22,121 nt of DNA. Origin: Cochliopodium minus (Eukaryota > Discosea > Himatismenida > Cochliopodiidae). Position 1 is the first letter of the stretch. Each line of letters begins with the position of its first letter. Where the stretch lies: positions 1 to 22,121 of the forward strand of contig JAMYWO010000410.1 in assembly GCA_024220525.1 (NCBI GenBank). Reading direction: 5' to 3'. A program made the translations under genes and the position numbers. Below are positions 1,336-20,586 of the stretch, in pieces. Below the pieces are notes generated by a model, which saw only the letters and a list, made by a program, of their open reading frames with translations, was not told the origin of the DNA and ran no database searches.

Positions 1336-4191
1336 TTATAATTGATTAAATTGATTCTGGAGATTTTCTAGATCCAAATTAGGATCAACTTGAACATTGT
1401 TTTCATTTCTGCTTTCCTCTACTCGTTTCTCAAACTTCAAAGTCAACCCCACATTATTTAATTCATCAACAAAAACGTTATTGTTCGCATTAACCTTGTT
1501 AGCATTGTTATCAACAAAAGATTTATTATCATTATTATTATTATTATTATCATTATTATATGAAGAATTATTATTAATATTATTATTGTTGTTATTATTA
1601 TTATTATTAATATTATTATCAATAATATTATTGTTATTATTAGTTTCGTTGAAAGAAGAATCGAGATGATCAATCAAAGAAATTCCCCATGGATTATCAG
1701 AATGAGTGACGGGTTCTTCTTTTTTGATTTCATTTTCTTCGTTGTTGAGTTTGTTTTGGTTGTCGAGGAGCTGTTGTTGTTTTACGAGGGTTTGATGTTG
1801 CAAACAATGTTTGTTTTCGCAGTATGGATTTGGCTTCAATGTGTAGCTTGGGAAAAAATCGTCCAATGCATTGTACCCCAAAAAATACCCCACTTCCAAA
1901 AAAATATTAATTAAATAAATTAAATAAAATAAATTAAATAAAATAAATTAAATAAAATAAATTAAATAAAATAAATAAAATAAATAATACAAAAATAAAA
2001 ATTAAATAAAAATGAAAATAAAAATAAAGAAAATAATAAATAAAAAATTACAAAAATAAAACAAAAAATGAAAAAAAAAATAGAAATAAAATACTAATTT
2101 TTTAAGAAATAAATAATATATTCAAAAAATAATATTAAATAAAATAAAAAAATAAAATAAAAAATAAAAAATGAAAAAATAATAAAATAATAAATAAATA
2201 AAAAATTAAAAACTAAAAAATTTTTAAAAGAAGTACCTTTTCCAAAACCCAACAAGTGTTTTAATACATTTTGTGCTAAAAAAGAAGAAACCATTGACAT
2301 TGTTGTTGGTAAACTTGCTACAAAAAAAAAATGTTAAATATTAATAAAAAATATCAAATAAATAAAAAATTTAAAATAATTTAAATCAAATAAATAAATT
2401 TTAAATCAAATAAATAATTTAATTGAATAAATACATTTTAATTAAATAAATATTTTAAATCAAATAAATAATTTAATTGAATGAATACATTTTAATTAAA
2501 TAAACATTTTAATTAAATAAATATTTTAATTAAATAAATATTTTAATTAAATAAATATTTTAATCTGAAAAAATTATACCAGCACATACACCCTCTCTTT
2601 TCAATGATTTTTCATCAATACCCGAAACAACCAAAAGTGGAGGAGAACACTCTAAAATTTCAAAAGAATAAAACGTGGAAAATATGGAAAATAAATATGA
2701 AAAATAAAATGTGAAAAAATAAAATTTTGAAAATTAAAATGTGAAAAAATTGATATTTTAAATTATTAAAATGTGAAAATATGAAATTTTAAATTATTAA
2801 ATTTAAAATTATTTATTTATAATAAACAAAATAATTATCAAAATGAAAAAAAAAAATACCAAAACATGCAGAGAGGCCAGGCACAATGAATTGGATATGA
2901 CCCGACATTGCGTTTTCAGAAACACCACTCTCCATCCACTTTATTCCCAATTCCAAACATGCCTTGTTTATCGATATTCTCGCCTCAAAGTTGTCCACTA
3001 TCATAAAATTAAACCCAAAAAATTAAAAAAAATAATTAAAATAATTAAAAAATAATTAAAAATAATCAAAAAATAATTAAAAAAATAATTAAAAAATAAT
3101 TAAAAAAATAATTAAAAAATAATTAAAAAATAATTAAAAAAATAATCAAACCTTTTAAATAAAAACAAAATAAAAAATTGATATTATTTAAAAAAATAAA
3201 ATCAAAATAATTAAAAAAAAAAATTGAACTTTAAAAATAAAAACTACCAAAAATAATGAGTAATACAGAAAAAGAATTTTGTATTCATTTCCACTCTTTT
3301 GAAATTTATTCAAAACAAATAAATTTAGAAATAAATTGATTAAAATAAAATTAATGAAAATTAAATTAAAAACATTTTTTAGAATTTTTTTTGAATCAAT
3401 TTTTAATTTAATGAAAATAAAAATAAAAATAAAAATAAAAATAAAAAAAAAATAAAAATGAAAATGAAAATGAAAATAAAAATAAAATAAAAATAAAAAA
3501 TAAATAATAAAAAAAAAATAAAAAAAAAAATGAAAATAAAAAAAATATTTTATTAATAATATGATTAAATGAAATAAAATTATTTTTTTTTTACCACATC
3601 CCAAAACCAAGTCAACTTTACCATTGGTGAGAGAGCCACTGGTCAGAGTCTGGAGAAAATGATCAAAATGCTTCATGGAAGAGATGTTGTAATCGTGGCT
3701 GTCGATGAGGACATCTGGATTGATTTTATTCAAGGTTTCTTGTGCTGCTTCTGTTTTCTTTTTTCCACATTGTTCAGGTGTGTAAAATAATCTGTTCATA
3801 TTCGCCAATTCTACCGTATCGTAATCAAATAAGATCAATTTTCCTATCCCACATCTTGTCAACATTTCTGATGTTACACTTCCTTTATATTTAATTGGAA
3901 TTTTAAATTATAAAGTGATGAAAAAAAATTTTTACCTACTCCCCCTAATTTTTTTGAACATTTTAATCTCTAATTTCTTATATTTTTCTATCCCATACCT
4001 AATCCAACTATAGCAACAGTATAATTTCTAATATTCTTTTTAATATTTCATTTATATTTCGCTCGAATACTTTTCTTTGTTATTACCCTATAATTTGATA
4101 CTATTCCCATTGTTTGCAATGCCATTAATCTTGAATATGGATTCTCATCTGTTACTTTTTCTGATATATGTTCTATTTTTTCTCTTTTCAT
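1336..4191 (-). CDS. UBA5: UBA5, UFM1-activating enzyme (E1)
   Basis: UBA5 adenylates UFM1 with ATP, holds it as a thioester and passes it to UFC1, starting ufmylation of ER-associated and ribosomal targets. Eight exons (4087-4191, 3999-4035, 3936-3944, 3595-3882, 2860-2997, 2580-2651, 2237-2317, 1336-1892) join in phase to 428 residues; human UBA5 has 404. Visible hallmarks are [15 protein letters not shown] near residues 15-30, the glycine loop VGLGGVGS at 45-52, [15 protein letters not shown], zinc cysteines 191/194 and 268/273, the catalytic Cys215 in KREGVCA-ASLPTTM, a UFM1-interacting motif DNPWGISLI around Trp312, an Asn-rich linker, and a UFC1-binding-like end [12 protein letters not shown]. 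The start (ATG 4189-4191) gives a short N-terminus like the human short isoform; a farther upstream start is possible. It diverges from the Bfr1-like gene. Confidence 0.95.
1893..2236 (-). repeat. UBA5 last intron with 14-bp AT tandem repeat
   Basis: This 344-nt intron starts with GTACTT and ends GGAAG in gene direction. On the plus strand at about 1908-1980 it carries several copies of a ttaaataaaataaa-type unit, then drifts into irregular A/T sequence. There is no coding signal inside it. Confidence 0.7.
2318..2579 (-). repeat. UBA5 intron with 17-18-bp AT tandem repeat
   Basis: This 262-nt intron (donor GTATAA, acceptor TGTAG) holds repeated ttttaattaaataaata-type units at about 2395-2565 on the plus strand, some with a ttgaatgaatac variant. 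The repeat differs from those in the neighbouring UBA5 introns. Confidence 0.65.
2998..3594 (-). repeat. UBA5 longest intron with aaaaaataatt tandem repeat
   Basis: At 597 nt this is the longest intron seen. It has a run of about 11-bp aaaaaataatt units at 3020-3150 and an A-rich aaaaat array at about 3415-3540. It separates the exon ending VDLVLGC from the one starting VDNFEAR. I see no exon inside it; the frame continuing from 3595 to 3188 is a read-through of A/T repeats. Confidence 0.7.
3936..3944 (-). other. UBA5: 9-nt microexon of UBA5
   Basis: In gene direction the exon reads GGGGAGTAG, with an AG acceptor before it (3945-3946) and a GT donor after it (3934-3935). Its flanking introns are 54 nt (3945-3998) and 53 nt (3883-3935). 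Joined with ...GTTGGATTAG upstream and GAAGTGTAACA downstream, it gives VGLGGVGSVT, the conserved E1 glycine loop. Skipping it would keep the frame but delete three residues of that loop. The homology and double phase fit are strong; no transcript was seen. Confidence 0.85.
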
Positions 4192-4629
4192 TTTTTTTTT
4201 TAAATATTTTGAAGTTTCCTTCTTTTTACTTTATCTATCTTCTCTATTCAGTGATTATGATTGAAATCATGATTTTTTTGATCAATCAAAGATTTTTTTT
4301 TTTTTTTTTATCGTTCTTATTCTTTAATAGATTAGTTTTTTATAATTTTATTAATATATAAAATAAATAATATTTAAAAAATATAAAAAAAAAATTAATA
4401 TATAAGGTATGAAGAAATTTTTTATTTATTTTTTTTGCAGAAACACAATCTTATTTTTTTCAATTTTTTGAATAAATTATTTAAAATTTTTTTGCTTTTT
4501 AAATATATTTAAATTATATGCAGAATATATCTTCAAATTTTTCATAATCAATATTTTTATTTGCTGAATAATTAAAATTTTATAATATTTTCATCAAATT
4601 TATACAAATTCTCAAAATTTATATCTAGA
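4192..4629. promoter_or_regulatory. Shared 5' region of UBA5 (-) and Bfr1-like gene (+)
   Basis: This 438-bp AT-rich segment separates two divergent starts and must hold both promoters. It has a run of 17 T at about 4293 and other long T tracts. A GGTATGAAG...TTTTGCAG pair at about 4405-4440 could be a very short intron in the 5' UTR of the Bfr1-like gene, but nothing tests that here. I recognise no TATA or initiator motif that stands out from the AT background. Confidence 0.5.
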
Positions 4630-6231
4630 ATGTCTGATAATACACAAAGACCAAGAACTGGAGGAAAGGTTGATGACCGTAAGAACAAATCAAACAGAGA
4701 TACTCACACCACCAACAAGGGTGGAAAAACTGATAGATTTGGAAAGAACCAAAAGGGATCCCAACCAAAGTATGATGATACCCAAGAAGCAAAAAAACAA
4801 AAAGAAAAAATTGAAAGAATTGATGATGAAATCAACAAAACCCAAAAAGAAATCGAAAGAATCGGAAAGGTTAGAGTTGTTGTAAGAAAACCACGTGCAA
4901 GATTGACCAATAAAGATCAAATTCTCAAAGAAATCGAGAAAACTAAAACTAGACTCGCTAAAGCTGAAGAAGATGTAAAGACCTTGCAACCTGATGTAAA
5001 GAGAGCTCTTGAAACTGTTAACGATAAGAGAACTGCAGTAAACAGATTGAAAACTGGAGTATTCATTCAAAATGTTTCCACCCAAGACTTTATCCAACAA
5101 AACGAAACAAAACTTAGAGAAGAAGTCAAACGTCTTGAAAAGAAATTGGAGACTGAAACTCTTTCGATTGGAGAAGAAAAGGTTGTTGTACAAGATATCA
5201 AAAAGGTCAAAGCAATGAGAGCTAATTTTGAACCTTATCAAAAAAGGGCAACTGAATTGAGACAAGCTGAAAATACATTCAACAAACTTGACAGAGACTT
5301 CAAAAACAAGACCCAATCTCTTGAAGAATACAAGAACACCATCCTTGAACTCCAAGGTGATCTCAACTCCCTCGAAGAAAGAGAAAAGGAAGCAGAAAAC
5401 TTGAGAAAGGAAGAGGAAAAGAAGCAAAAGGAATCAGAACAAAAGGAAAAAGATGAAAAGACCAAACTTGTTGAAAAATTGGATGAATTGGTCAAACAAT
5501 TCCGTAATGAAAAGGATCTTCTTGCACAAATGAGAGACAAGTGGTACGAAAACAAAAGAGAAGAACGTAACAAGAAATTGGAAGTTGCAAACAGTGAACG
5601 TTCCGAAAAGAGAAGACTCCAAGAACAAGAAAAGAAAGACCAAAAAGCTCAAGAGAGACATGAAAGAAGAACTGCTATCCCATTCAACACTGAAATCACC
5701 GTCTGCCAAAACTTGATTGTATATTTGAATGAATTGTTAAACTCCACTAGAGTAAATGAATCAACCACCCAACCTCAAACTGAACAAAAGAAGGAAGAAA
5801 AGGGAGACCAACAAGGTTACATCAAAGGAAAGACCGAAACTGAAGATCTCTTGTTCCCTGAAAGCACCGGACAACAAAAAAAGAAGAAAACCCAAAAGAA
5901 GAAGAAAGCTGCTCCAACTAAGATCACCCACAACTGGGATACTTTTACTCGTTTTGAAGAAATCGGATTGGGAGAACCTCCAATTGTTGTTTCCAAAATC
6001 CCAGAAGCTATTGAAAGTGTCAAAGCTAAGCTCGTTGAATTCAAAAAGAAATCCCAAGAAGAAAGACTCGTTATCTTGAAGAAGCTCAGCGAAGAAGAAA
6101 GAGAAGAAAAGAGACAAGAAGAAGAATTAGAAAAATTGAGATTACAAAAAGAAAAAGAAGAAAAGGAAGCACCAAAGACCACTGAAGAACCAAAGAAAGA
6201 AGAAGGAACTCAAACCAACGAAAGCAAATAA
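4630..6231 (+). CDS. Bfr1-like polysome/ER-associated coiled-coil protein
   Basis: The gene is intronless, 533 residues, with ATG 4630 and TAA 6229-6231. Yeast Bfr1 (470 residues) binds mRNA on polysomes and the ER and affects ploidy and secretion. Similarity to it is seen in order: a basic Gly/Asn/Lys N-terminus (1-50); long Lys/Glu coiled coil (about 55-345); LSIGEEKVVVQDIKKVKAM then FEPYQK near 178-205, like LSLVQEKLLVKEM and IEPIRK in Bfr1; IPFNTEITVCQNLIVYLNEL at 350-369; DLLFP then Lys-rich QKKKKTQKKKK (407-426); and FTRFEEIGLGEPP plus IPEAIESVKAKLVEFKKK (439-474), like the Bfr1 C-terminal domain. An acidic/basic tail follows. Codons end in G or C (AAG, AAC, ATC) more often than in neighbouring genes, which suggests high expression. 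The assignment rests on remembered yeast sequence. Confidence 0.85.
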   Translation: MSDNTQRPRTGGKVDDRKNKSNRDTHTTNKGGKTDRFGKNQKGSQPKYDDTQEAKKQKEKIERIDDEINKTQKEIERIGKVRVVVRKPRARLTNKDQILKEIEKTKTRLAKAEEDVKTLQPDVKRALETVNDKRTAVNRLKTGVFIQNVSTQDFIQQNETKLREEVKRLEKKLETETLSIGEEKVVVQDIKKVKAMRANFEPYQKRATELRQAENTFNKLDRDFKNKTQSLEEYKNTILELQGDLNSLEEREKEAENLRKEEEKKQKESEQKEKDEKTKLVEKLDELVKQFRNEKDLLAQMRDKWYENKREERNKKLEVANSERSEKRRLQEQEKKDQKAQERHERRTAIPFNTEITVCQNLIVYLNELLNSTRVNESTTQPQTEQKKEEKGDQQGYIKGKTETEDLLFPESTGQQKKKKTQKKKKAAPTKITHNWDTFTRFEEIGLGEPPIVVSKIPEAIESVKAKLVEFKKKSQEERLVILKKLSEEEREEKRQEEELEKLRLQKEKEEKEAPKTTEEPKKEEGTQTNESK

Positions 6232-6771: not shown

Positions 6772-9700
6772 ATGAATAGAGAAACAACAATCAATATCTC
6801 TCTATTGATAAGAAATGAATATGAAGTAATCAAAAAATTTGAAGGAAATGTAAATCTATTATTGGAATATTTGGTAACTTCTGCAAATTTGAATCCAATA
6901 GTGGACAATTTTTTGACCGAAATGGGATTTGAATATGAAAATTATTTCTTATTGTGGAAAAGAATCTATTTTTATAAGAAGAGATTTGATATTTCAACCA
7001 ATAATTCATTCATTGCCAATCAAATCTACAAATCCCTCAATCAAATTTATAAATTCCTTTCATTCCCTCCCAAATTATTGGAAAAATTGGACAAATATTT
7101 TGAAGAGAATGAAGAGGGAAAGCAAATGGACAGAAATATCTTTGACGATCTTCAATCTTTTATAGGAAACGAGAAATTTGAAATGATCTCCTCCTATGTA
7201 CAAAATTTGTTTGATAAATTAACCTCATTCCCTATTCATAATGTGGAAAGTCCGAAAAGAGGAAAGATATGTGATTTGCAGAGTATAGATCAAATCTTTT
7301 CGAAATTAAATCAACAAAATCTTCAAAATAGCCAAAACATCAAATCACAAGTGAAAAAATTGAAAGAGAAAGAGGAATCAGAAGATTCGGAGAATTCTTC
7401 TCTTTCTTCACTTGCTTCCAATCAAATAGAGAAAACAATGAATTTTCAAGATGATAATTCCTCCAATTCTGAATCACATCCCCTCTCCGAATCTAATTAT
7501 CCAAGAAGAACCAGTCTTGCAAATGGAGAAACAACAGTAACAAATGAGATAGAAAAGCTTTTGATGGATCAATCTCTTTTAAACGATTTGAATTTCCTTT
7601 CTTTCAATGAAGAAGTATATGGCACCGATAATTCGAGAAATACACCCAGTATTTCTCCTGTTCCTTTTATCAAATCCCCTCACACCAACAACAAATTGAA
7701 TTCATCAATGGAGAAGAACAAATTGAAGCCCAATATGGGAATGAGGATGTCCGTTTATCAATTTGATGATGATACCAGCGAGACAGTATCGATGCAAGAT
7801 GAGGACGATGATAATCCTCGCAACAAGTATTCCACCGATGATATATTCGCTAGATACGATCATTACAAGGATAATTCACCAACAAACAATAATAATTTAA
7901 TTCTCAGCAATTCTCCCTCAATGATGAGAGGTGAAAATCTTTTTTCATCTGCTCCTCTTCCAAATTTCAAAGGAGAAAATGATAATGAAGGCAAAAATGA
8001 AAGTGGGAGTGGAAATGAGGGGAGCCCCAATGAAAACTATTCAAATCCAATCAAAACAGATAAATTTAATCCTATCAACAAACAGATCACTCGAAACATG
8101 GTTGCTTCTCCGCAAACAGGGATGAAATTGAACATTTCTCAGCTCAACAGGGGGAGTTTGTTGGATACTAGCGGAGATTTTTCCAACAGAAACACTCTCT
8201 TTTTGATTTATGCGGATGATGGTGAAAGCAAAGATTTGGTTCCTCAACGTCTTTCCCCAAGGTTCTTATTTTAAATTATTTCTTAAATTATTCTAAATTT
8301 GCTTTAATGCTAATTAATTTTCATTTTATTTTTTAATTTTAATTTAGATTATTGTTTTCAGATCCCGCGCAAATTTTTTCAAAACACTTTTCAAACAGAA
8401 ATGTAGCCAAAAATTTAAAAAAGCTCTCCAACCTCCTCTTCTTCGCCGAAAGCGGCCAACAAGAAACCAAAAAAGAAAACTCCTCCAACAACAACAACAA
8501 CAACAACAATAACAACAATACCTCCTCCCCAAGTCCGAGCCTCCTCAGCAAATCAAGCAGCAACAGCAACATAAACAATATCAATACTAACAATGCTAAT
8601 AACTCAAACAATATGAATAACATAAACAATAGGAACAATGATGAGAACAGAAGAGATAATTTCACAGAGGCTGTTGAGTTTATTTTAAAGGAGAAGACCA
8701 TTTTGCTTTTGTTTGAGAGCTTTTTGGCTTTGAGGGAGAAGATGATCCGTGATCTTCTTTCTACCTCCAAGAGATTCACTTTAAAAGAAGAGGAGAAAGT
8801 TGGTAAATCATGGAAAATGTAAAATATAAAAAATTTTTTAATTAATTTTTATATTTTTATTTTAAAAACTTGAAATTTTTATATTTTTAATTTATCAATT
8901 TTTAAATTTTTTTTATTTTATTATTTTATTATTTTCAATCTTAAATTTTTTTTAAATCAAAAATTTTGAATTTTAGGTTTAATGACATGATGGAGTATGA
9001 AAAAGTTATGTTGAAAGATCCTTTGTATTCATCACCAGCATTGTTGTCATTCAGAGTAAATCAGATATTTTCTTTTTATTTCAGAACGAGCCCCTCTTCT
9101 TTTCTTTCTTTGTCTTCTTCTCCCAATACCCTTTCCCTCTCCTCCTTTCTCCTCCTCCTTTCTCCTTCCTACACCACTCCCTCCCCTCTTCTCCTTCAAC
9201 GTAAATATTATTTTTTTTTTTTATTTTTAATCTTTATTTGATTTTCTATTTTTTTTCTTTTTTTTCTTTTTTTTTCAATACTAATTGTTGGGAATTTTTT
9301 TTTATTTTAATTATTTTGAGGAAATGCTTTCCAAAAATTTTTTTTTAAAATTTTAAACTGGATTACTTACAAAAAAAATTTTGGTTTTATTTTATTCATT
9401 AAATTTATTTTTATGTCCCTGTCTAAAATTTTTTATTTTTTTTTCCAATATATTATTTTTATTTTATTCTTTATCTTCATTTCATTTTATTTTAAATTTT
9501 TTTTTTATTTTTTTTATTTTTTTATTTTTTATTTATTTATTTTTTTATTTTTTATTTTTTTATTTATTTTCAAAACAATTTTTTTTGATTAAAAAAAAAA
9601 GAGGAAGAAAAAGAAAAGTACAAGGAAAGGATGTGCGCAGGAGTGTTTAACGAAATGAAAGAAAACCTGAAAGTGACGATGCACAGCTGCGTGAACGAGT

Positions 9701-12700
9701 TCCTCCTCTACTGCAACCACTATAAAAAAAAGAGCCTCGAAAAAGAAATAGAGTTGGGATGCATCCTCTTTGAACAATCTCTTTTAAACAATAAAAATTT
9801 GACAAACATTAATGACAATTATGGTTTTGAAGTTTTGTTTCATCTTTCTTCTCTTCAAATAGACAATGAAAGGAGTAAAACTACTTTGGATGATAATCTT
9901 TCTTTTTTTTGGGAAAGTCTTTCTTCTCTTCTTTCTTCCAATTCTTTGTTTTTTGATTTTCTTTCTTATTCTTTCAAGAGGGAGCTTCTTTCTTGGTCTC
10001 CTTTCGGTAAAATTAAATTATTTTTCTTTTTTTTCCAAAAAAAAAATTAAATCAAAAATTTTACAAAATAAAATTTGAAAAAAAAAAAAATAAAATTTAT
10101 CAACATTTAAAAAATCAAATAAACAGAATTTATCAAAAACATTTTAAATTGTGTTTAAAAAATTAAATTAAAAAATACTAATTTAAAACTAAAATAAAAA
10201 TAAAAAGAAAAATTCAAAGTTAATACAGAATTAAAAAATTAAATTTTTAATAAAAAAAAAATTTAAAAAAATTAAATTTGAAAAAAAAATAATTCAAATT
10301 TTGAAAAAATAGGAGAGAGATTGATGAAAATAAAGAAAGAAGTGAAAGGAAAAAGAGTTTGGATCATGTACGAAGGATTTGAAGTGACAAGCAGAGTGAT
10401 GAGCAGTGGACATTTGGGATTGAGCAACAAGTATTTCGGGAAGTACATGGAAAGTTTCGATTCCATGCTGATCTCTCTAACCAAAGTCTCCAAAGAAGAA
10501 AGCAGAAAAGAAGTTCTCCCTTTTCTTTCTCCTCAGTTATTCCAAAACAAAGCATTGTTCTTTTTGAAAGTGATGGAGTTTATTGTTACTGGTGCTTTGT
10601 CTTCTTTGAATAGATCGCTTTCTTCTGTCACTCCCAAGTTCAGCTGCTTTTTTTTGGAGATGAATGCGCTTTTAAACACAAAACTGAAATCTTATTGTCC
10701 AGATCTCGTTTATTTCGATCGTGGTGCTTATCTCACTCTTCTTTTCATTTATCAGTTTTTGTTGTTTCCCATTCTTCACAATCCTAATCTTTACAGGAGG
10801 GGTTTTTACGATATCAAGATTATCGATTCTCTTTCTTCCATTCTCATCGATCTTCCCATGGTGGGATCCAAACAACTTCTCCTCCTTCTTTCCAACTCCA
10901 ATTCTGGTTTTTCATCAAGTACTTCCCCTTCCACTTTTCACCCTCCCTCCCCTCTTCAATCTCCCCTCTCTTCTAGCAATACTTCCTCTTCCAATCCCAA
11001 TTCTCCTCTTTCTCGTACTTCTTCTTCCGCTTTTCGTCCTCCCTCTCCTCTTCTCTCGCCTTCTTCTACGCATACTGGTACCACTTCTTCCTTGAAAAGT
11101 AGATCAGAATCCTCCATAAAATTTCAGAATTCAAACAATCTTTCTTTAAATAACGAGGAAAACATCGTTAATGGTTCTGATCCTTCTATTTCCACCAATT
11201 TTGTGAGCACTTCTCATCCTTCTCTTTCTGTTAACGAAAACAAAACAGATACCTCCAATAATACAAATGATAACAAAAACAATACAGATGATAACAAAAA
11301 CAAAACAGATACCTCCAATAATACAAATGATATCAAAAACAATACAGATGATATCAAAAACAATACAGATGATATCAAAAACAATACAGATGATAACAAA
11401 AGTAAAACAGATGATATCTCTCCCTCTAATAACGAAAATACCCCAGTTAAAAATAATGATATCCCTGTAAAAAATGATCATAAAACAGAATCCTCTGATG
11501 TAAATACCTCTGTTAGTGATACCATTTCTAAAAATGAGAAAACAGAATCTTCTAATGTAAATACCTCTGTTAGTGAGAGTATCAGTGAAGAGCCCCAAAC
11601 AAAGAAGATAAAGTACCACTGGATTTTTGAACCCCAAAAATATGAGGGAGATCATTTCGTCGGAAAGGGATTGTGCATTTATCATTTCGATGTCAACTGG
11701 GTCATTGCAAAAGAATCCATGCTCCAAAAGATTCTTTCTGTTCTCTTTGTATACAAAATTTTTATTTTTTTCAATATTGTTTTTTATTTTTAAATTATAA
11801 TTTTTTATAATTTTTATTTTTGAATTATAATTTTTTATAATTTTTATTTATTGTTTTTATTTTTTCTTTCTTTTTTGTTTTTTATTCAATTTTTTATTTT
11901 TTTTACTTAACAATTTTAAAACTTTTTTTTAAAAGATGCCAAACAAGAGAGAAAGAACAGAAAACAAAGTGTTTACAGTGGCAGAATGTATGATGTACAA
12001 TAACTATTTGATAAACCTTTACAAATATGTCAAAAGCCAAAGAAATGGATTGATCTCAAGAGTTTCTGATTATTCCTGCAAACTCATCAAAGAAATTTGT
12101 TTGGGAAATGTCTCCACCTGGATGGATAGAAACAGGTATTATTAAATTTTATAATTTTTTTTTTTGTTTCAAAATTTTGATAAATTAATTTTTTATTCAT
12201 TATTTTTTTATTTTTATTTTTATTTTATTTTTTATTTTTATCATTATTTTTAATTTTATATTTTTTATTTTATTTTTTATTTTTATCATTATTTTATATT
12301 TTTTATTTATTATTTTTTATTTATTATTTATTATTTTTTTTTGGAAATTTATTTTTAATTTTTTTAGTTTGAACAATTCAATAGTGAGTAATAATGAAGA
12401 TGATACAGAGAAAAAAATTTCAATCATAATGAACATGCACGCAAACAAAGTTCCCCCATTTGACGACAGTTTCTTCAAATTAGAAAGTGGAGAGGAAGAA
12501 TTCATTGTGAAAGACAGCAAGAACGAGAAAAGAGAAGTCAATTTTAATGTTTTTTTCAACTACATACCTCCCATTCAAACGCTTTCTCTTTTTTCTAATG
12601 TCAAAAAGAAATCTATGAAGACAGGTGACAAAATAAAGATGGTGAAGAAAAAAGTAGTGTTGGGTAGAGAGCTCAGAAAAGAATTGTTTCAGTGCAACAG

Positions 12701-15700
12701 TGTTTTTGACAAGTTGAAACAAATTAGCAACATTTCTCTCCTTAAAAACTCTTTTCACCAGTTCATTCTTTTCTACACTTCTTTTTATGAGCGTGTAGAT
12801 ATTCAGGATAACTCTTCTTTGATTCATCTTTCCAGCAATCTCCAATATTCCACTCTTCCTGAGAAATTGCTCACCTTGGAAAACAACAAGTTGAAAGTTT
12901 TGTTTCAATTTTGGATAGAGATGATGAATGCCAAGAAACAAGTCCTTTTGCCGACTCATTTGGAAGAATTGAAGGCCATTCTTCTTTTTCATTTCACTTA
13001 TAAAGATCATCTTACTTGTTTCCCTCCTTTTTTAAAGAGTTGGATTATCTACAATTTTGAGAAGAAAGATATTAAAGTGTGGAGTGTTCTTTACAAGGTG
13101 ATAGTGAATTATATCGAATCTCTTCTTTTCCCTTTGCTTTCTACTTTTTTGCATTCTTTAGAAAATAGGAAATTTATTTCTTCCCCTCTTTCTTCTCTTC
13201 CTTTTCTTTCTGATGGAGTCCCTACTTTTTTATCTCAGATCTCCTACTTTCTTATGTCTCCTAGTGTAACAAAACTTTCTTGGAAGCATCTTTTCAACGA
13301 TCATTATTTCATGAAAAACGAAGAGAAACGTGCTTTTTATCAATTTTTGGAAATGGTCAACCAAGGTTTTTCGGTTTCCAAAATATTAAAACCTTCCCCT
13401 CTTATTTCTTCTCTTTCTCTTATGTTTTATCTCACTAATTTGCCTTTTCCTATCGCAGATTCTTTTTCTTCTATTCTTTCTTCTTTTTTCCCTGTTGATG
13501 TTTCTCTTTATCAACCTCTTTCTTCTCACATTCCTTCTTTTTTCAATAACTCTTCCAATCCCAATAGTTCTTCTCCTCCAACAAATGTTAATCGTTTATC
13601 TAACAGGTTGTCTGTTACTAGCAATGAATTTACAAAATTACATTTGGAAGAGGAAAAAGAGATGGACAAAGATGATCTTTTATTTTTCATTTCTTCTTTA
13701 ACGACCAGACAAAAATCTCTTTTAAAATGGTTACTCCATCTGATGCATTCCCTTTCCTCTCTTTACCAATTGGAATCTCGTTCAAACAATAAAGTAAAGA
13801 TATACTCCAGTTGGTGCTATCAAATCTCTTCCATTCTTTTGTTTTCTTCATCAAGCAATCCTCTTTACTTTACTCCCCAAATGTCTCTCGATGTATCAAT
13901 GGCTTTTCATTCCTCCTCTTCTCCTTCCTCTCTTGATCAACCTCAACTCCCGATCCCCTTGACTGCACTTCCATCTCTTTCCATTCCCACCAATCATTCG
14001 GGAACTCTCCTCACTAAAAAGAAAGACAAAAAACCCACCCTTCATTCCAAATTATTTACCACTCTTCGTACTCCTTCTCCTAATAACTCCCCTACCCAAA
14101 CTCTTTCCTCTTCTCCTTCTCAGGCTAATCTTCTTTCTTCTTTAAATAAACCCAACACTAGTTTAATAGAGCAGGATCTGGCTATTGATGGGAAAGAAGA
14201 AAACGATATAAAAAGCAATATGTTTGATAGCAAAGATATTGTAGAGAAAGATACTAAATACAAGAAAAGCAAAAAAGAAAAAGAAGTGCAATTCAATGAA
14301 AATTATGAGAATAAAGAAGATAATGTAAATAACAATGTAAATAACCACCTCAATTCTTCTTTCACCACTTCTGGAGGAGAATATTTCACTCATGTTCCTC
14401 TGGATTCTTTGACTCCCATTACAAACTGTTCTCAATATCTGAACAATCCAACTCAAATAATCCAGCTTTTTTCTAATCTTCTTTTCCATCTCCACTCTTT
14501 TTCTTTTCTCCAATTCAACGTGGATCATTGGAAAAAAAGAAATGTGATTTGGTCGGTTTATCAAACCAAACCCTCCAACACTACTGAGGTAACACCCAGA
14601 ACTTCCAGCATTGACGAAGAAACAAACAAAAACTCTCCCGAAATTCAAGAAAATGAGAGCAAAGAAAATAAAGAAGAAAATGCAAAGGGAGAAGATGTGG
14701 AGGATGGAAACAAGTATCTTTTGGCGGGGGCAACTTTGGAAGAGATTTTGGGATTTTTGTTGAGCGATGGATACAATCATGTGGATAATTCTTACGTGAA
14801 AGTTTTCTTGCAAACACATCTCTATTTCACCACTTCTTCTGATGTTCTCTCCTACCTTTTTGAAAAATACCAAACCAAGTTTTATTCTGTTCCTAAAAAA
14901 GAGAAAAAAGAAGAGAAAAAAGGGGCTATAGGATTGACCGAAGATGAAAAGAGGATCTTCTTGGGAAGAAGAGAAAAGAGAAAGGAAAGAATCGTTTATA
15001 TTTTGACAGAATGGTTCACCAATGAAAACTTTTTAAATACTTCTTCGATTGATCAACCTTTTCTTAAACTCTTTTCTCAGTTTTTGGACTTTGCTTCAAA
15101 GGAAGAAAAGAAAGAGAAGAAGAGGGAAATCAGCAAAACAAAAATGCTGAAAAATTGTTATTCCCTCTTGGAAAAATACCACAAACAAAAAACCTTTGAA
15201 AATAAATTACAATCTAATCTCACCATCCTCACTGAATTGGAAGAAAACATCACTTTCATGGAAATTGATTCTTATGTTTTTGCCCAACAACTCATTTTGT
15301 ACGATGCAAAAATTTTTTCGAGTTTAAATCCCAAAGAATTACTCTTCAAAAATTGGAAACACGAAAAAACTTCTCCTACTCTCACTCTTTTTACCAAACA
15401 ATGGAATTCTGTTGTAAATTGGGTTGCCACTTTGATTGTAATGCAAAAAGATGTTTCAAAGCGTGTTCAATTGATAGAAAAACTTTTGAATATCGCCAAT
15501 TATTGTTGTACTTTCAATGATTTTCACTCTTGTTATGCCATTGTTGGAGGTAATTTTTAAATTTTTTTTTTTTTTGGATTTTGACATTTTTATTTTTATT
15601 AAAAAGGTTTGGGAACGGTGTCAGTTGATAGATTATCAAAAACTTGGCCACAAGTATCCAAATCTTCACAAGAAATCAAAAGTTATCTTGATCTTTTGTT

Positions 15701-16100
15701 TTCTCCTTCTAAAAATTATCAAAATCTGAGAAAGAAAATGGAATCTTTGAATCGTTCAATTCCACTAATACCATACACCGGTTTGATACAAAAGGATTTG
15801 TTTGCAATGGAAGAATCAAACGAAAATTTCATTTCAGAAGAAGAAATCACGAGAGTATCAAAGTTTGTTAATCTATCAAAAAGCCAAAAGATTATAAATT
15901 TTGAAAAGATGAGGCTTTTACATAAAGTTGTACAAAATGTGGTGAGTTATCAAAACAGATCTCCTTACAAATTCCCAATCAATCTTCCTATTACTGCCTA
16001 TATCAAACAACTTCCTCAAATAGGGGATGCTGATAAATTGTATGATTTGTCTTTGATCATTGAACCAAAGATCATCAATACAAATTCAAATACAAATTAA
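6772..16100 (+). CDS. RGS-RasGAP-RhoGAP-like-RasGEF multidomain signalling protein
   Basis: Eight exons (6772-8261, 8348-8818, 8977-9200, 9602-10006, 10313-11748, 11936-12135, 12368-15549, 15607-16100) agree in phase at all seven junctions and sum to 7,902 nt, 2,633 residues plus TAA. Domains in order: RGS (about 28-150); Ser/Asn-rich acidic linker; RGS-like segment (about 601-772, interrupted by low complexity); RasGAP (about 782-1055); Ser/Pro/Asn linker with a 7-residue repeat; unrecognised segment (about 1292-1517); RGS-like (about 1518-1677); RhoGAP-like (about 1691-1914); linker; REM (about 2191-2255); CDC25-type RasGEF (about 2361-2625). RasGEF domains load GTP on Ras-family GTPases, RasGAPs stimulate hydrolysis, and RGS domains bind G-alpha. 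I infer a receptor-proximal hub. From memory, Dictyostelium GflB, a G-alpha-stimulated Rap1 GEF, may be a partial analogue. Two adjoining genes remain possible until a transcript spans exons 5-7. Confidence 0.85.
6853..7221 (+). other. RGS domain 1
   Basis: Residues 28-150 fit the nine-helix RGS pattern: LLEYL near the start, a FLTEMGFEYENYFLLW block matching the FL-x-SEEN-x-x-FW signature (Asn57 at the G-alpha-contacting Asn, Trp62 at the Trp), FIANQIYKSLNQIYKFL for the AxxIYxxF helix, and NIFDDLQSFIGNEKFEMI for the FDEAQxxV helix. RGS domains bind activated G-alpha and usually speed its GTPase. The match is by eye. Confidence 0.75.
8658..9732 (+). other. RGS-like segment 2, split over three exons
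   Basis: NFTEAVEFILKEKTILLLF plus ESFLAL (exon 2), MFNDMMEYEKVML then LLSFRVNQIFSFYF (exon 3) and GVFNEMKENLKVTM then VNEFLLYCNHYK (exon 4) can be laid along the RGS helices FxxLL...FxxFL, FWxxxEEFKK, AxxIYxxFL and FDEAQxxV...FPRFLxSxxY. A Ser/Pro/Leu low-complexity run of about 45 residues sits in the middle. The canonical EEN signature is absent, so the fold is tentative. The LSFRVNQIFSFYF match argues against removing a 29-nt GT...AG stretch that starts at GTAAATCAG. Confidence 0.4.
9201..9601 (+). other. 401-nt T-rich intron of the RGS/RasGEF gene
   Basis: The donor is CAAC|GTAAAT and the acceptor is a run of A ending AAAAG|AGGAAG; the join is phase 1 and gives ...LLLQ-QEEKEKYKERM. Inside are T homopolymers and TTTTTATT repeats with no coding sign. 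An alternative pair, AGA|GTAAATCAG with acceptor AGAG|GAAG at 9603/9604, would also keep the frame and would drop the Ser/Pro-rich part of exon 3. The neighbouring intron at 10007-10312 (306 nt, donor GTAAAA, acceptor AATAG) is A-rich and equally empty. Confidence 0.65.
9760..10890 (+). other. RasGAP domain with arginine finger but no second arginine
   Basis: GAYLTLLFIYQFLLFP (1001-1016) aligns residue for residue with the RasGAP signature GAFLFLRFICPAILSP. Upstream, VTSRVMSSG places Arg891 (codon 10393-10395) at the arginine finger of FRANSLA. The gap from Arg891 to the signature position is 116 residues, against 114 in p120GAP and 115 in neurofibromin. The signature's own arginine is Leu1007 here (10741-10743). 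The helices between (KALFFLKVMEFIVTGAL; FFLEMNALLNTKLKSYCPDL) fit the family. A 306-nt intron splits the N-terminal part. Confidence 0.75.
11245..11415 (+). repeat. In-frame 7-residue coding repeat (TDDIKNN)
   Basis: The linker after the RasGAP domain repeats a 21-nt unit coding variants of TDDIKNN (TNDNKNN, TDDNKNK, TNDIKNN, then TDDIKNN copies). An older, longer unit starting DTSNNTND is itself duplicated around it. Just downstream, at about 11482-11586, KTESSDVNTSVSDTISKNE is followed by a near copy KTESSNVNTSVSESISEE. All copies stay in frame, so length changes are tolerated. Confidence 0.85.
12693..13172 (+). other. RGS-like segment 3
   Basis: Residues about 1518-1677 can be laid on the RGS pattern: SVFDKLKQISNISLLKNSF, then ENNKLKVLFQFWIEMMNAKK for the ENLxFWxExxxxK helix, HLEELKAILLFHF for AxxIYxxF, and KVWSVLYKVIVNYIE with LLFPLLSTFLHS for the terminal helices. 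An insertion of about 35 residues lies between the first helices and the ENNK block. Similarity is in hydrophobic spacing more than identity; another all-helical fold is possible. Confidence 0.4.
13212..13883 (+). other. RhoGAP-like domain without catalytic residues
   Basis: DGVPTFLSQISYFLM matches the GVPxFLxxxxxxLE start, SLMFYLTNLPFPI matches LLKxYLRELPEPL, and LTTRQKSLLKWLLHLMHSL matches LPxxNRxTLxxLLxHLxxV, followed by SNNKVKIYSSW for the NKMTxxNLA region. The GxFRxSG arginine finger aligns with LFNDHY (Asn1719, codon 13296-13298), the LLK lysine with a Met, and the LRELP arginine with Thr. Real RhoGAP activity is therefore unlikely; binding of a Rho-family GTPase or a structural role is possible. 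Confidence 0.6.
14712..16080 (+). other. REM plus CDC25-homology RasGEF catalytic module
   Basis: LAGATLEEILGFLLSDG and DNSYVKVFLQTHLYFTTS are a clear REM (RasGEF N) motif. The catalytic domain follows: SYVFAQQLILYDAKIFSSL, NPKELLFKNW, WNSVVNWVATLIV, KRVQLIEKLLNIAN, FNDFHSCYAIVGG-LGTV then SVDRLSKTW, IPLIPYTGLIQKDLFAMEES (the helical-hairpin region) and NFEKMRLLHKVV. All conserved blocks are present, so exchange activity is expected. Which GTPase it serves (Ras, Rap or Ral type) cannot be read from this. A 57-nt intron (15550-15606) cuts between the AIVGG and LGTV blocks. Confidence 0.93.
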
Positions 16101-16216: not shown

Positions 16217-18126
16217 TTATTCAATTTTATCAAACAAGTCATCAATGTCAATATCATCGTTGTCATTTGGTTGATTATTGTTGTTGTTTACATTATTTTG
16301 ATTCTCATCTTTTTCAAAAAACATGGTTGCTTGTGTATTGGTAAGATTGGAGTCGTCAGATTCGTCGATACTGATGGGGAAAATCTTGTTTTTTTCGAGG
16401 AAAAGAAAGAAATCATTTTTTCTTTTATTTTTGTAAAAAATTTTTGATTGATTCAAAAAAGAATTAAACTGGAGTGATTCTTCTTCTTCAATGCATCCCT
16501 TTCTCAAAACTTTTATTGCTTCTATCGCTTTCCCGTAAAATTGATTTCCGAGAGAATCATCAACAATTTGAAAAATTACTTTTTGCATTTGTTGAATGGC
16601 AGTGTCAACCAAATCAACATCCCTTCTTTTCATCATCTTTTCAAAATCATCAATGGGATGAATGGATCCAACAGAATCGACACCCCCAGAAAGAATGTTG
16701 GATAAAGAAAAAAAGTCTCCGCCTTCTGGATTGTTTTTCTGTTTTTTGTTGAGAGAAGATTGAACGTAAGAGGAGAGGTTTGTTTCTTTTTGAATGTTTT
16801 CTGTGAACATTTCGGACCAAAATGTTCTTTTTTTTGATTTTGCAGTGGTTTGAAGATTTGTGAACACAAAATTTTGTTTGAGAGAATGAATAGAAGAAGC
16901 ACTGTTTTGAAGGAGGAGGTTAGAAGGATTGATGTAATCAGAAATGAGGTTGTCGAGGGGGGGAATCTCTGATTTTTTGTTGGACAAAAAAGAATGTAAA
17001 GAAGAAAAGAGGGGTGCCGACTTTTTCCCTCCTCCCTTTCCCTTTCCCTCTCCTTCTCCTTCTCCCTCTCCTTCCTTTTCTTTTCTTATCTGATAATTGT
17101 AAAGAGCTCTGCTTTGGAGGGATTGATAAAAGTGTTGAAGGGTGGGATTAAACGTGTATTTTGGTTTTAAAAGAGAAAGGGGATTCATCTCTTCTTTCAC
17201 CTCTTCTTTATCATGGAGGTTGTAAGAGAGGGAAGAAAGGGAGGAGGAGGAGAGGGGAGTGTGGAGATCAAAGGAGAGGATGAAATCTCTCACAGAGGTT
17301 AGCTGTTGGGTGGAAGGTTTGAAGTTTTTTTTGGAGAGGGAAGGAGAAAGAGAAGGAAAGTGATAATGTCTCAAATCTTCTGCAAAAGGTAATTTATTGA
17401 AAATAAAATAATACACTGAATTATTATTATTCTCTGAATTATTATTATTATTATTTGAAGAAGAATTGGAAGAATTATCATTGGAAGGAGAAGCTTTTGA
17501 AATGGGAATCAATACACCCAACATCACTTTTGCATTTGCTCTTTTGATGAAACGAACGATGGCAAGGGATTTAGTTTCAATCATTGCTTCTATGAGGGAG
17601 GAGATTCCCACATTTGATTCTTCATCATTTCCCACTATCACCTCGCTTTCTCCCATAAAGTTTTCTCTTGGCACTGCATTCATGTCACAAAAACCAATCA
17701 ACCACATCCCTTTCTCTCCACTCTTGTATTCCAACACTTTTTCATCCATAAAATCGAATGGAATCAATGATCTTCCGTACTTGTATCTTTTTTTTTTCAG
17801 AAAAATTTTTTTACATTTTAAATTTTTTAATCATTTCTTCAATTATTCTTTTTTTTTTATTAAATATTAATTTTTTTTCATTTTTTTTTTACCCTTTAGA
17901 TAAATTTTTTTTGTCGATTTTGACACCAGATTCCAAAACACTTTCATAATTTCTTTCCATTTTAACTTTGAATTCCCTCCCTCCATTCTCCTCTTCTTCC
18001 TCCTCCTCCTCTCCTTCATTGTCCTCCTCCTCTATCTCTTCTTCCTCCTCTCCTCCTCTCCCCTTTCCTTTTCTCTTTTTTTTGTTAATATTATTATTGT
18101 TACTGTTAATGTTATTGTTGTTATTA

Positions 18127-19961: not shown

Positions 19962-20586
19962 ATGAATAATTATGAAGGTAATAATATATTTAAATCATTA
20001 TACATCCTATCTTATTCATCAAATCTTCACAGAAATCGATCCAATACCAATAAATAAGACGGTGGTGTTTTTGAATAATTTTATAATTAGCACAACCCAA
20101 TATTTGAATAGATTCAGTTACTTGTGTGAACAAAAATTAGCAAAAGTAGCAAGAGATGTGCAAAGAATAGAAATCACAATGAGTATTTTAGAAACAAAAT
20201 TGAGCTCAATAGATGGAATAGATAAAGTGAGTGCTCCCACAAATACAACCAATGATACAACAAATCAATCCAATTTGGATCAATCAGGAATACCACAACC
20301 ACCATCCGATAATGTTCCACCTCCTCCCGTTGAAAATTTTGTAAAAGTAAGAGATGATGAAAGATTCAAACAATTTTTCAAAGCGATCGATATGGGTGCA
20401 CCTGCTCCTCAAATAGAAATGAGATTGCAAGGTGAAGGAATAAATCCCTCCATTTTGAGTTGTGGAGAAGAAAGGGCAGATCAATTCGATAATAAAGGTG
20501 AAAGAAAGATTGATTATAATCATCTTCCCCCTGGTATCGGTGAGGATTCCAATAGCTCTGAAGAAACAGATAGTTCTGAGTATTAA
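19962..20586 (+). CDS. WASHC3: WASHC3 (CCDC53), WASH complex subunit 3
   Basis: WASHC3 is a small core subunit of the WASH complex, which activates Arp2/3 on endosomes to drive actin-dependent sorting. The model has a 16-nt first exon (ATG 19962, MNNYE), a 55-nt intron (19978-20032, GTAATA...CACAG) and exon 2 to TAA at 20584-20586, for 189 residues; human has 194. Matches in order: IPINKTVVFLNNFIISTTQY (human VAFLNQFVVHTVQF), LNRFSYLCEQKLAKV, IEITMSILETKLSSIDGID (IETTLNILDAKLSSIPGLD), a Pro-rich PPSDNVPPPPVEN linker, then DDERFKQFFKAIDMGAPA and MRLQGEGINPSIL (human DPRYARYLKMVQVGVPV, ISEGLDPDLL), and a Ser/Glu-rich acidic end. Starting instead at the ATG at 19972 inside the intron would add residues not seen in the family. 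Confidence 0.93.

Follow-up and report, generated by a model that had tools for sequence, protein, structure and literature searches.

Introduction

In Dictyostelium RasGEFD, a RasGEF is combined with a RhoGAP homology domain, and Saccharomyces BEM2, a RhoGAP homologue for cell polarity, unites RhoGAP, RasGEF and RasGEF_N regions in a single chain (PMC1273635). In a different combination, RGS-RhoGEF is a G-alpha effector in Entamoeba and an effector candidate in Naegleria fowleri, its RGS domain binding active G-alpha, as stated in PMC9283941. Here we analyze a predicted eight-exon gene of Cochliopodium minus (Eukaryota; Discosea; Himatismenida; Cochliopodiidae) that occupies positions 6772-16100 on the forward strand of contig JAMYWO010000410.1 (NCBI GenBank assembly GCA_024220525.1). 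The window denotes the whole stretch of DNA analyzed, which is 22,121 nucleotides long and makes up an entire contig (C405) of the searched genome, 44.65 Mb in 598 contigs. The explanation that we favor, and to which we assign about an even chance of being correct, is that this locus encodes one large multidomain Ras-family GEF that consists, in this order, of an RGS-like domain, a RhoGAP-like domain devoid of the catalytic arginine, RasGEF_N and RasGEF, and contains no RasGAP domain.

Each of the described systems shares part of this arrangement. As far as the domain descriptions go, RasGEFD resembles the window in joining RasGEF to RhoGAP, and BEM2, the polarity RhoGAP, in joining RhoGAP, RasGEF_N and RasGEF; unlike the domains claimed for the window, RGS and RasGAP occur 0 times each in the text of the paper that describes both (PMC1273635). 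The RGS-RhoGEF proteins of Entamoeba and Naegleria fowleri are like the window in combining RGS with an exchange domain for a small GTPase on one chain, but the exchange domain is RhoGEF in those proteins and RasGEF in the window (PMC9283941). The legend of Figure 1 in the same paper names RasGEF among the domains drawn for candidate components of G protein signalling in Naegleria fowleri, and that figure may already show a protein that combines RGS with RasGEF. Among the open PMC papers listed in a literature search, none was found to propose a single chain with RGS, RasGAP and RasGEF, the arrangement put forward for this locus in the first-pass annotation; nor did that search yield an RGS-like domain joined to RhoGAP and RasGEF, or a paper combining RasGEF, RhoGAP and Naegleria. 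The pairing of RhoGAP with RasGEF is already known, and the putative RGS-like domain would be an addition to it.

A complete RasGEF module

The presence of a complete RasGEF_N plus RasGEF module is certain from the predicted protein sequence, in agreement with the first-pass annotation. RasGEF_N (14727-15026) is recognized by Pfam with E=8.9e-10 and lies upstream of the RasGEF catalytic domain (15279-15914), which is split by intron 7 (15550-15606). For the 444 residues at the C terminus, taken after splicing, Pfam yields E=1.2e-49 for RasGEF and E=2.4e-9 for RasGEF_N, with both scores above the curated cut-offs (169 bits against 23.1 and 37.8 bits against 28.3, respectively). The closest solved relatives of the RasGEF domain among 28 matched PDB sequences are 2ije (1.1e-26) and 4mgk (3e-25), which, from the molecule names, we take to be RasGRF1 and Epac2. 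Exon 7 (12368-15549) is a single unbroken frame, and the RhoGAP-like stretch without the arginine, RasGEF_N and half of RasGEF share this one exon.

RGS-like and RhoGAP-like domains

The remaining domain assignments were assessed with profiles built from matches in the same genome; the domain tests were run on the 2,584-residue variant of the gene model. The RGS profile consists of 27 fragments, with L073 dropped for stops or introns inside the match. Exon 1 (6772-8261, residues 1-496) scores 27.4 bits against this profile, with the alignment covering profile positions 10-107 of 134 and placing an RGS-like domain at about residues 31-132 (6862-7167). This score was reached by none of 500 shuffles (maximum 17.6) and by none of 238 pieces from non-members (maximum 16.4), and ranged from 20.7 to 30.4 bits across held-out profiles. 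A similar RGS alignment, A1 (26 sequences), retrieves RGS proteins from PDB, the best at 4.3e-31, and can thus be considered a true RGS profile. Judging from these comparisons, the exon 1 domain is probably RGS-like, and it likely forms the N-terminal part of the protein that carries the RasGEF. Two other parts of the predicted protein give lower scores against the RGS profile, namely, exons 4-5 (16.1 bits, with 2 of 500 shuffles and 1 of 238 non-members as high) and residues 1450-1640 (15.9 bits, 0 of 500 and 1 of 238). Given that a non-member reaches 16.4 bits, we judge both to be a generic helix signal. An RGS domain in exons 2-3 was also considered and rejected, the score being no better than that of shuffled sequences (139 of 300 as high, or 33 of 500 with the larger profile).

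For RhoGAP, the profile included 19 sequences, of which 14 were fetched matches and five came from genes that combine RhoGAP with RasGEF; C20 and C82, whose sequences were too fragmented, were omitted, and C468 contributed no RhoGAP piece to the profile. Residues 1630-1870, encoded in exon 7, score 20.2 bits, with the two halves of the domain aligned in the correct order and separated by an insert, and the RhoGAP-like domain is accordingly placed at about residues 1644-1836 (13218-13796). Neither the 500 shuffles (maximum 12.9) nor the 282 non-member pieces (maximum 15.1) attained this score, which varied between 15.3 and 20.8 bits across held-out profiles. The catalytic arginine (GxFR) is absent: the family alignment has KHLFND in the window where active-looking members have IFR. 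These data weakly suggest that exon 7 carries a RhoGAP-like domain without the catalytic arginine. A second RasGEF_N ahead of this region was rejected, with scores of 4.9-5.0 bits that 109-117 of 500 shuffles equalled.

The points that weigh against our favored reading concern, in the first place, the identity of these two domains. Pfam detects no RGS domain in exon 1 at E<=10, and the 51 matches to PF00615 (RGS) that the genome yields at E<=1 do not include the window, whereas the Entamoeba RGS domain (4gou) matches alignment A1 at 1.9e-11. Exon 1 falls below the weakest held-out, Pfam-detected RGS member (32.2 bits in a range of 32.2-96.4; because the held-out sets contain almost identical paralogues as well as pieces that belong to the same gene, the upper ends of such ranges are inflated, and the lowest value was used), and hhalign aligns it to RGS with P=7e-4 and a probability of only 26%. 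With the first RGS profile, built from 15 sequences, 2 of 300 shuffles and 3 of 239 non-members scored as high as exon 1. Exon 1 also scores 14.5 bits against the RasGEF_N profile, a value that 0 of 500 shuffles and 1 of 225 non-members matched, and part of the exon 1 signal therefore appears to be a generic helix pattern. Similarly, no Pfam RhoGAP is found in the window at E<=10, and the window is not among the matches listed for PF00620 (RhoGAP; 163 matches in the genome). The RhoGAP-like part scores below the weakest held-out member (41.1 bits, with members at 41-173), and its hhalign alignment, confined to 40 columns in the second half, has P=0.002 and a probability of 13%. The first RhoGAP profile (15 sequences) gave 13.3 bits, with 0 of 300 shuffles and 1 of 281 non-members as high, and the rise to 20.2 bits is due to the addition of the five RhoGAP-RasGEF sequences; a profile of these five alone gave 12.1 bits, as high as which were 5 of 285 non-members, the best at 18.0. 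Thus, the N-terminal RGS domain and the RhoGAP-like fold proposed in the first-pass annotation both find weak support in the larger own-genome profiles, where they exceed all shuffles and non-member pieces, but neither is recognized by Pfam or receives a high probability from hhalign.

Related loci in the genome

At least eight contigs (C11, C12, C20, C82, C161, C172, C466 and C468), identified by eye among the matches listed, have a RhoGAP upstream of a RasGEF on the same strand at a distance of 1.4-3.4 kb. In five of these (C12, C20, C82, C161 and C468), RasGEF_N lies between the two, which is the same order of RhoGAP, RasGEF_N and RasGEF as in the window. In C161, a single open frame (504 residues) carries Pfam RhoGAP (2.5e-7) and RasGEF_N (1.2e-9), much as one exon of the window carries the RhoGAP-like part and RasGEF_N; the frames upstream of it, in locus L078 (C161:10500-16800), resemble RhoGEF and PH parts by eye. 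Unlike the RhoGAP-like domain of the window, the RhoGAP domains of these same-genome genes are recognized by Pfam.

The absence of the finger arginine is shared more widely. The arginine is present at this position in seven aligned members (L081-L086 and L088) and is missing, as in the window, in C11, C12, C161 and C466, the last being the least sure because the sequence was joined across an intron there. It is also missing in L087, L089, L090, L091, L093 and L095, which are not known to adjoin a RasGEF. In total, the arginine is kept in 7 of 13 readable fetched RhoGAP matches (C11 apart) and in none of the four readable RhoGAP-RasGEF sequences; as read from these alignments, the RhoGAP domains of this genome have often lost it.

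Combinations of RGS with RasGEF were found in two places. At C26, RGS lies upstream of RasGEF in neighbouring frames on one strand, and at C494 (L077, C494:10218-13406), RasGEF is followed by RGS, also on the same strand and in neighbouring frames, in the reverse of the order in the window. Both pairs are likely to be single genes.

Gene model and the two-gene alternative

When the gene model was rebuilt from the sequence, all seven GT-AG junctions proved to be consistent in phase, with a single terminal stop, and the length of 2,633 residues was reproduced, in full accord with the eight exons of agreeing phase that had been described earlier. The model, which runs from 6772 to the end of the stop codon at 16100, is based on phase agreement, G+C contrast (31-36% in exons and 4-20% in introns) and codon scores. 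The codon log-odds were derived from 2,831 codons in 18 stretches of this genome that match RGS or RasGAP. In 8 of 8 exons the frame of the model outscores the other two forward frames, and in 7 of 8 it outscores all five alternatives, the exception being exon 3 (79 bases). The donor of exon 1 reads GTTCTT, and the remaining six introns start with GTA. Exon 2 (8348-8818) includes a poly-N linker and has no assigned domain. Exon 3 (8977-9200) has an alternative donor at 9055 or 9200, and exon 4 (9604-10006) an acceptor at 9602 or 9604, such that the pair 9200/9602 for intron 3 leads to 2,633 residues and the pair 9055/9604 to 2,584 residues. The 2,633-residue variant is as good as, or better than, the shorter one because the stretch 9056-9200 has 44% G+C and scores as coding-like (0.18). 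Exons 5 (10313-11748), 6 (11936-12135) and 8 (15607-16100, terminal) complete the model, which is sound as a prediction from sequence.

The principal alternative, which we consider unlikely, is that the locus comprises two neighbouring genes, one upstream, for an RGS-like protein that would end within exon 5 or beyond it, and one downstream, for a RhoGAP-like RasGEF that would start at the ATG at 11936 or within exon 7. The weakest point of the one-gene reading is indeed intron 5 and the in-frame ATG with which exon 6 exactly opens, behind an A/T-rich stretch; splicing from exon 1 to exon 7 on one transcript is a prediction, and both points add to the case against a single gene. No paralogue with both halves came up in protein searches of the genome: exon 1 and exon 5 each found the window alone, and exon 7 retrieved, besides the window, RasGEF_N and RasGEF parts only. 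In addition, the in-frame continuation of exon 5 (11749-11790) has a codon score of 0.10, which is not clearly non-coding. However, the coding-like G+C content stops at 11748, where a GT donor (GTATAC) is matched in phase to the AG at 11935, and the in-frame stop that would end the upstream gene is found 45 bases past exon 5, after sequence with 10% G+C. Moreover, the gap between that stop and exon 6 would be 142 bases.

Catalytic residues of the RasGEF domain

One feature of the RasGEF domain itself also counts against an active exchange factor. The conserved N-[FYL]-[NH] motif reads D-F-H in the window, with an Asp codon at 15519-15521 (residue 2411) in place of the conserved Asn, which presumably matters for RasGEF catalysis. 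The first Asn of the motif is retained in 2ije and 4mgk and in 7 of 7 paralogues with a readable motif; these seven come from 18 scanned loci that partly overlap, with L007 (wrong frame) set aside by eye, and the search pattern allowed N or D alone, such that other residues in paralogues would not show. Together with the missing catalytic residue of the RhoGAP-like part, this substitution, common to none of the readable paralogues, could indicate a catalytically dead RasGEF that acts as a scaffold. We regard this as distinctly unlikely: the remainder of the RasGEF domain aligns with 2ije across 246 residues, and the comparison involves just seven readable paralogues and a pattern restricted to N or D.

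The RasGAP domain proposed for exons 4-5

The first-pass annotation placed a RasGAP core in exons 4-5, with the suggestion that RasGAP and RasGEF on one chain form a Ras switch, and named profile searches of these exons that detect no RasGAP as one of the results that would overturn it. Such searches indeed came out empty. With E<=10 as the limit, the spliced exons 4-5 (residues 681-1014) gave no hit to a Pfam family or a PDB chain, and none of the 87 genome matches to PF00616 (RasGAP) at E<=1 is on the window contig. The own-genome RasGAP profile comprised 26 fragments (L020, L026 and L027 were dropped for stops or introns inside the match, and L037 was kept out as part of the same gene as L024). 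Against this profile, exons 4-5 score 3.5 bits (0.9-4.7 across held-out profiles), a value equalled or passed by 50 of 500 shuffles and by 39 of 203 non-member ORF (open reading frame) pieces; by comparison, held-out members score 51-211 bits, and the 203 non-member pieces reach at most 13.6. Given these uniformly negative outcomes, we reject a RasGAP domain in exons 4-5: no domain is detected in exon 4, where it was claimed to start, and the core claimed for exon 5 is unsupported.

The impression of a RasGAP likely stems from the stretch LFIYQFLLFPILHNPNLY, which hhalign aligned with the FLR..PA...P region of the family. This alignment of exon 5 with the RasGAP alignment A2 (24 sequences) has P=0.12 and covers 19 columns around a PAxxxP-like stretch, in which the arginine of the FLR motif is absent. 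Thus, a RasGAP assigned by eye, in a gene rich in A/T and in low-complexity sequence, did not stand up to comparison with held-out members from the same genome. The second half of exon 5 is of low complexity, rich in S and P and then in NNTDDIK-like repeats; by eye, the latter are short and in frame, at about 11250-11410. The nearest RasGAP and RasGEF on the same strand, assessed by eye among the matches listed, are 8.7 kb apart on C1, with a weak RasGAP (E=0.024).

It is very improbable that exons 4-6 form a RasGAP fold that has diverged beyond the reach of profiles, next to RGS, RhoGAP-like and RasGEF domains on one chain; if true, such a chain would set a G-alpha-gated balance between the loading and unloading of a Ras-family GTPase. 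A self-limiting or two-way Ras switch built from RGS, RasGAP and RasGEF, which would draw on the 19-column resemblance to the FLR/PAxxxP region and on some 330 residues of coding sequence in exons 4-5 (residues 681-1012) that have no other assignment, is highly unlikely in view of the negative Pfam, PDB and own-genome results, the absent motif arginine and, by eye among the matches listed, the lack of a RasGAP match less than 5 kb from a same-strand RasGEF. Because a RasGAP on the RasGEF chain is unsupported, so is the proposal that such a protein limits its own action or turns one Ras-family member on and another off.

A possible mechanism

If the locus encodes a single multidomain exchange factor, as we favor, its RasGEF domain would load GTP onto a Ras/Rap-type GTPase, an activity that we infer rather than assert because the conserved Asn is Asp. 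The RGS-like domain, which is separated from the RhoGAP-like part by a long, unassigned and partly low-complexity region, might bind active G-alpha and thereby recruit or release the exchange factor at the membrane, in analogy to the RGS-RhoGEF effectors described for Entamoeba and Naegleria. Given that the catalytic arginine is missing, the RhoGAP-like domain may bind a Rho/Rac GTPase without GTP hydrolysis or serve as a scaffold. The genome holds many RasGEF, RhoGAP, RGS and G-alpha matches, the last numbering 78 with exons counted apart. Accordingly, of the earlier proposal of a G-alpha-linked Ras switch, the link to G-alpha stays possible, with G-alpha genes in the genome, and the two-way switch is unsupported. 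Should the one-chain reading be correct, a domain of the G-alpha-binding type would be wired directly to a Ras activator, with a module of the Rho-binding type between them, giving this protist a shorter route by which heterotrimeric G proteins could act on Ras.

Neighbouring genes

Upstream of the gene analyzed here, the window contains a charged, coiled-coil-looking open frame on the forward strand (4576-6231), which encodes 532 residues when read from the ATG at 4633 and lacks any Pfam match that passes the cut-off, and a ThiF/E1-like frame on the reverse strand (3188-3907; Pfam ThiF, 1.2e-19). Downstream, a convergent Ku gene on the reverse strand (16217-17830) begins 116 bases beyond the stop codon of the RasGEF gene model and contains Ku_PK_bind (8.3e-30) and Ku beta-barrel (9e-19) domains by Pfam; judging by its C-terminal domain, we take it to be Ku80-like. 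Farther along, the forward strand encodes CCDC53, a WASH complex subunit (19966-20586; E=2e-33).

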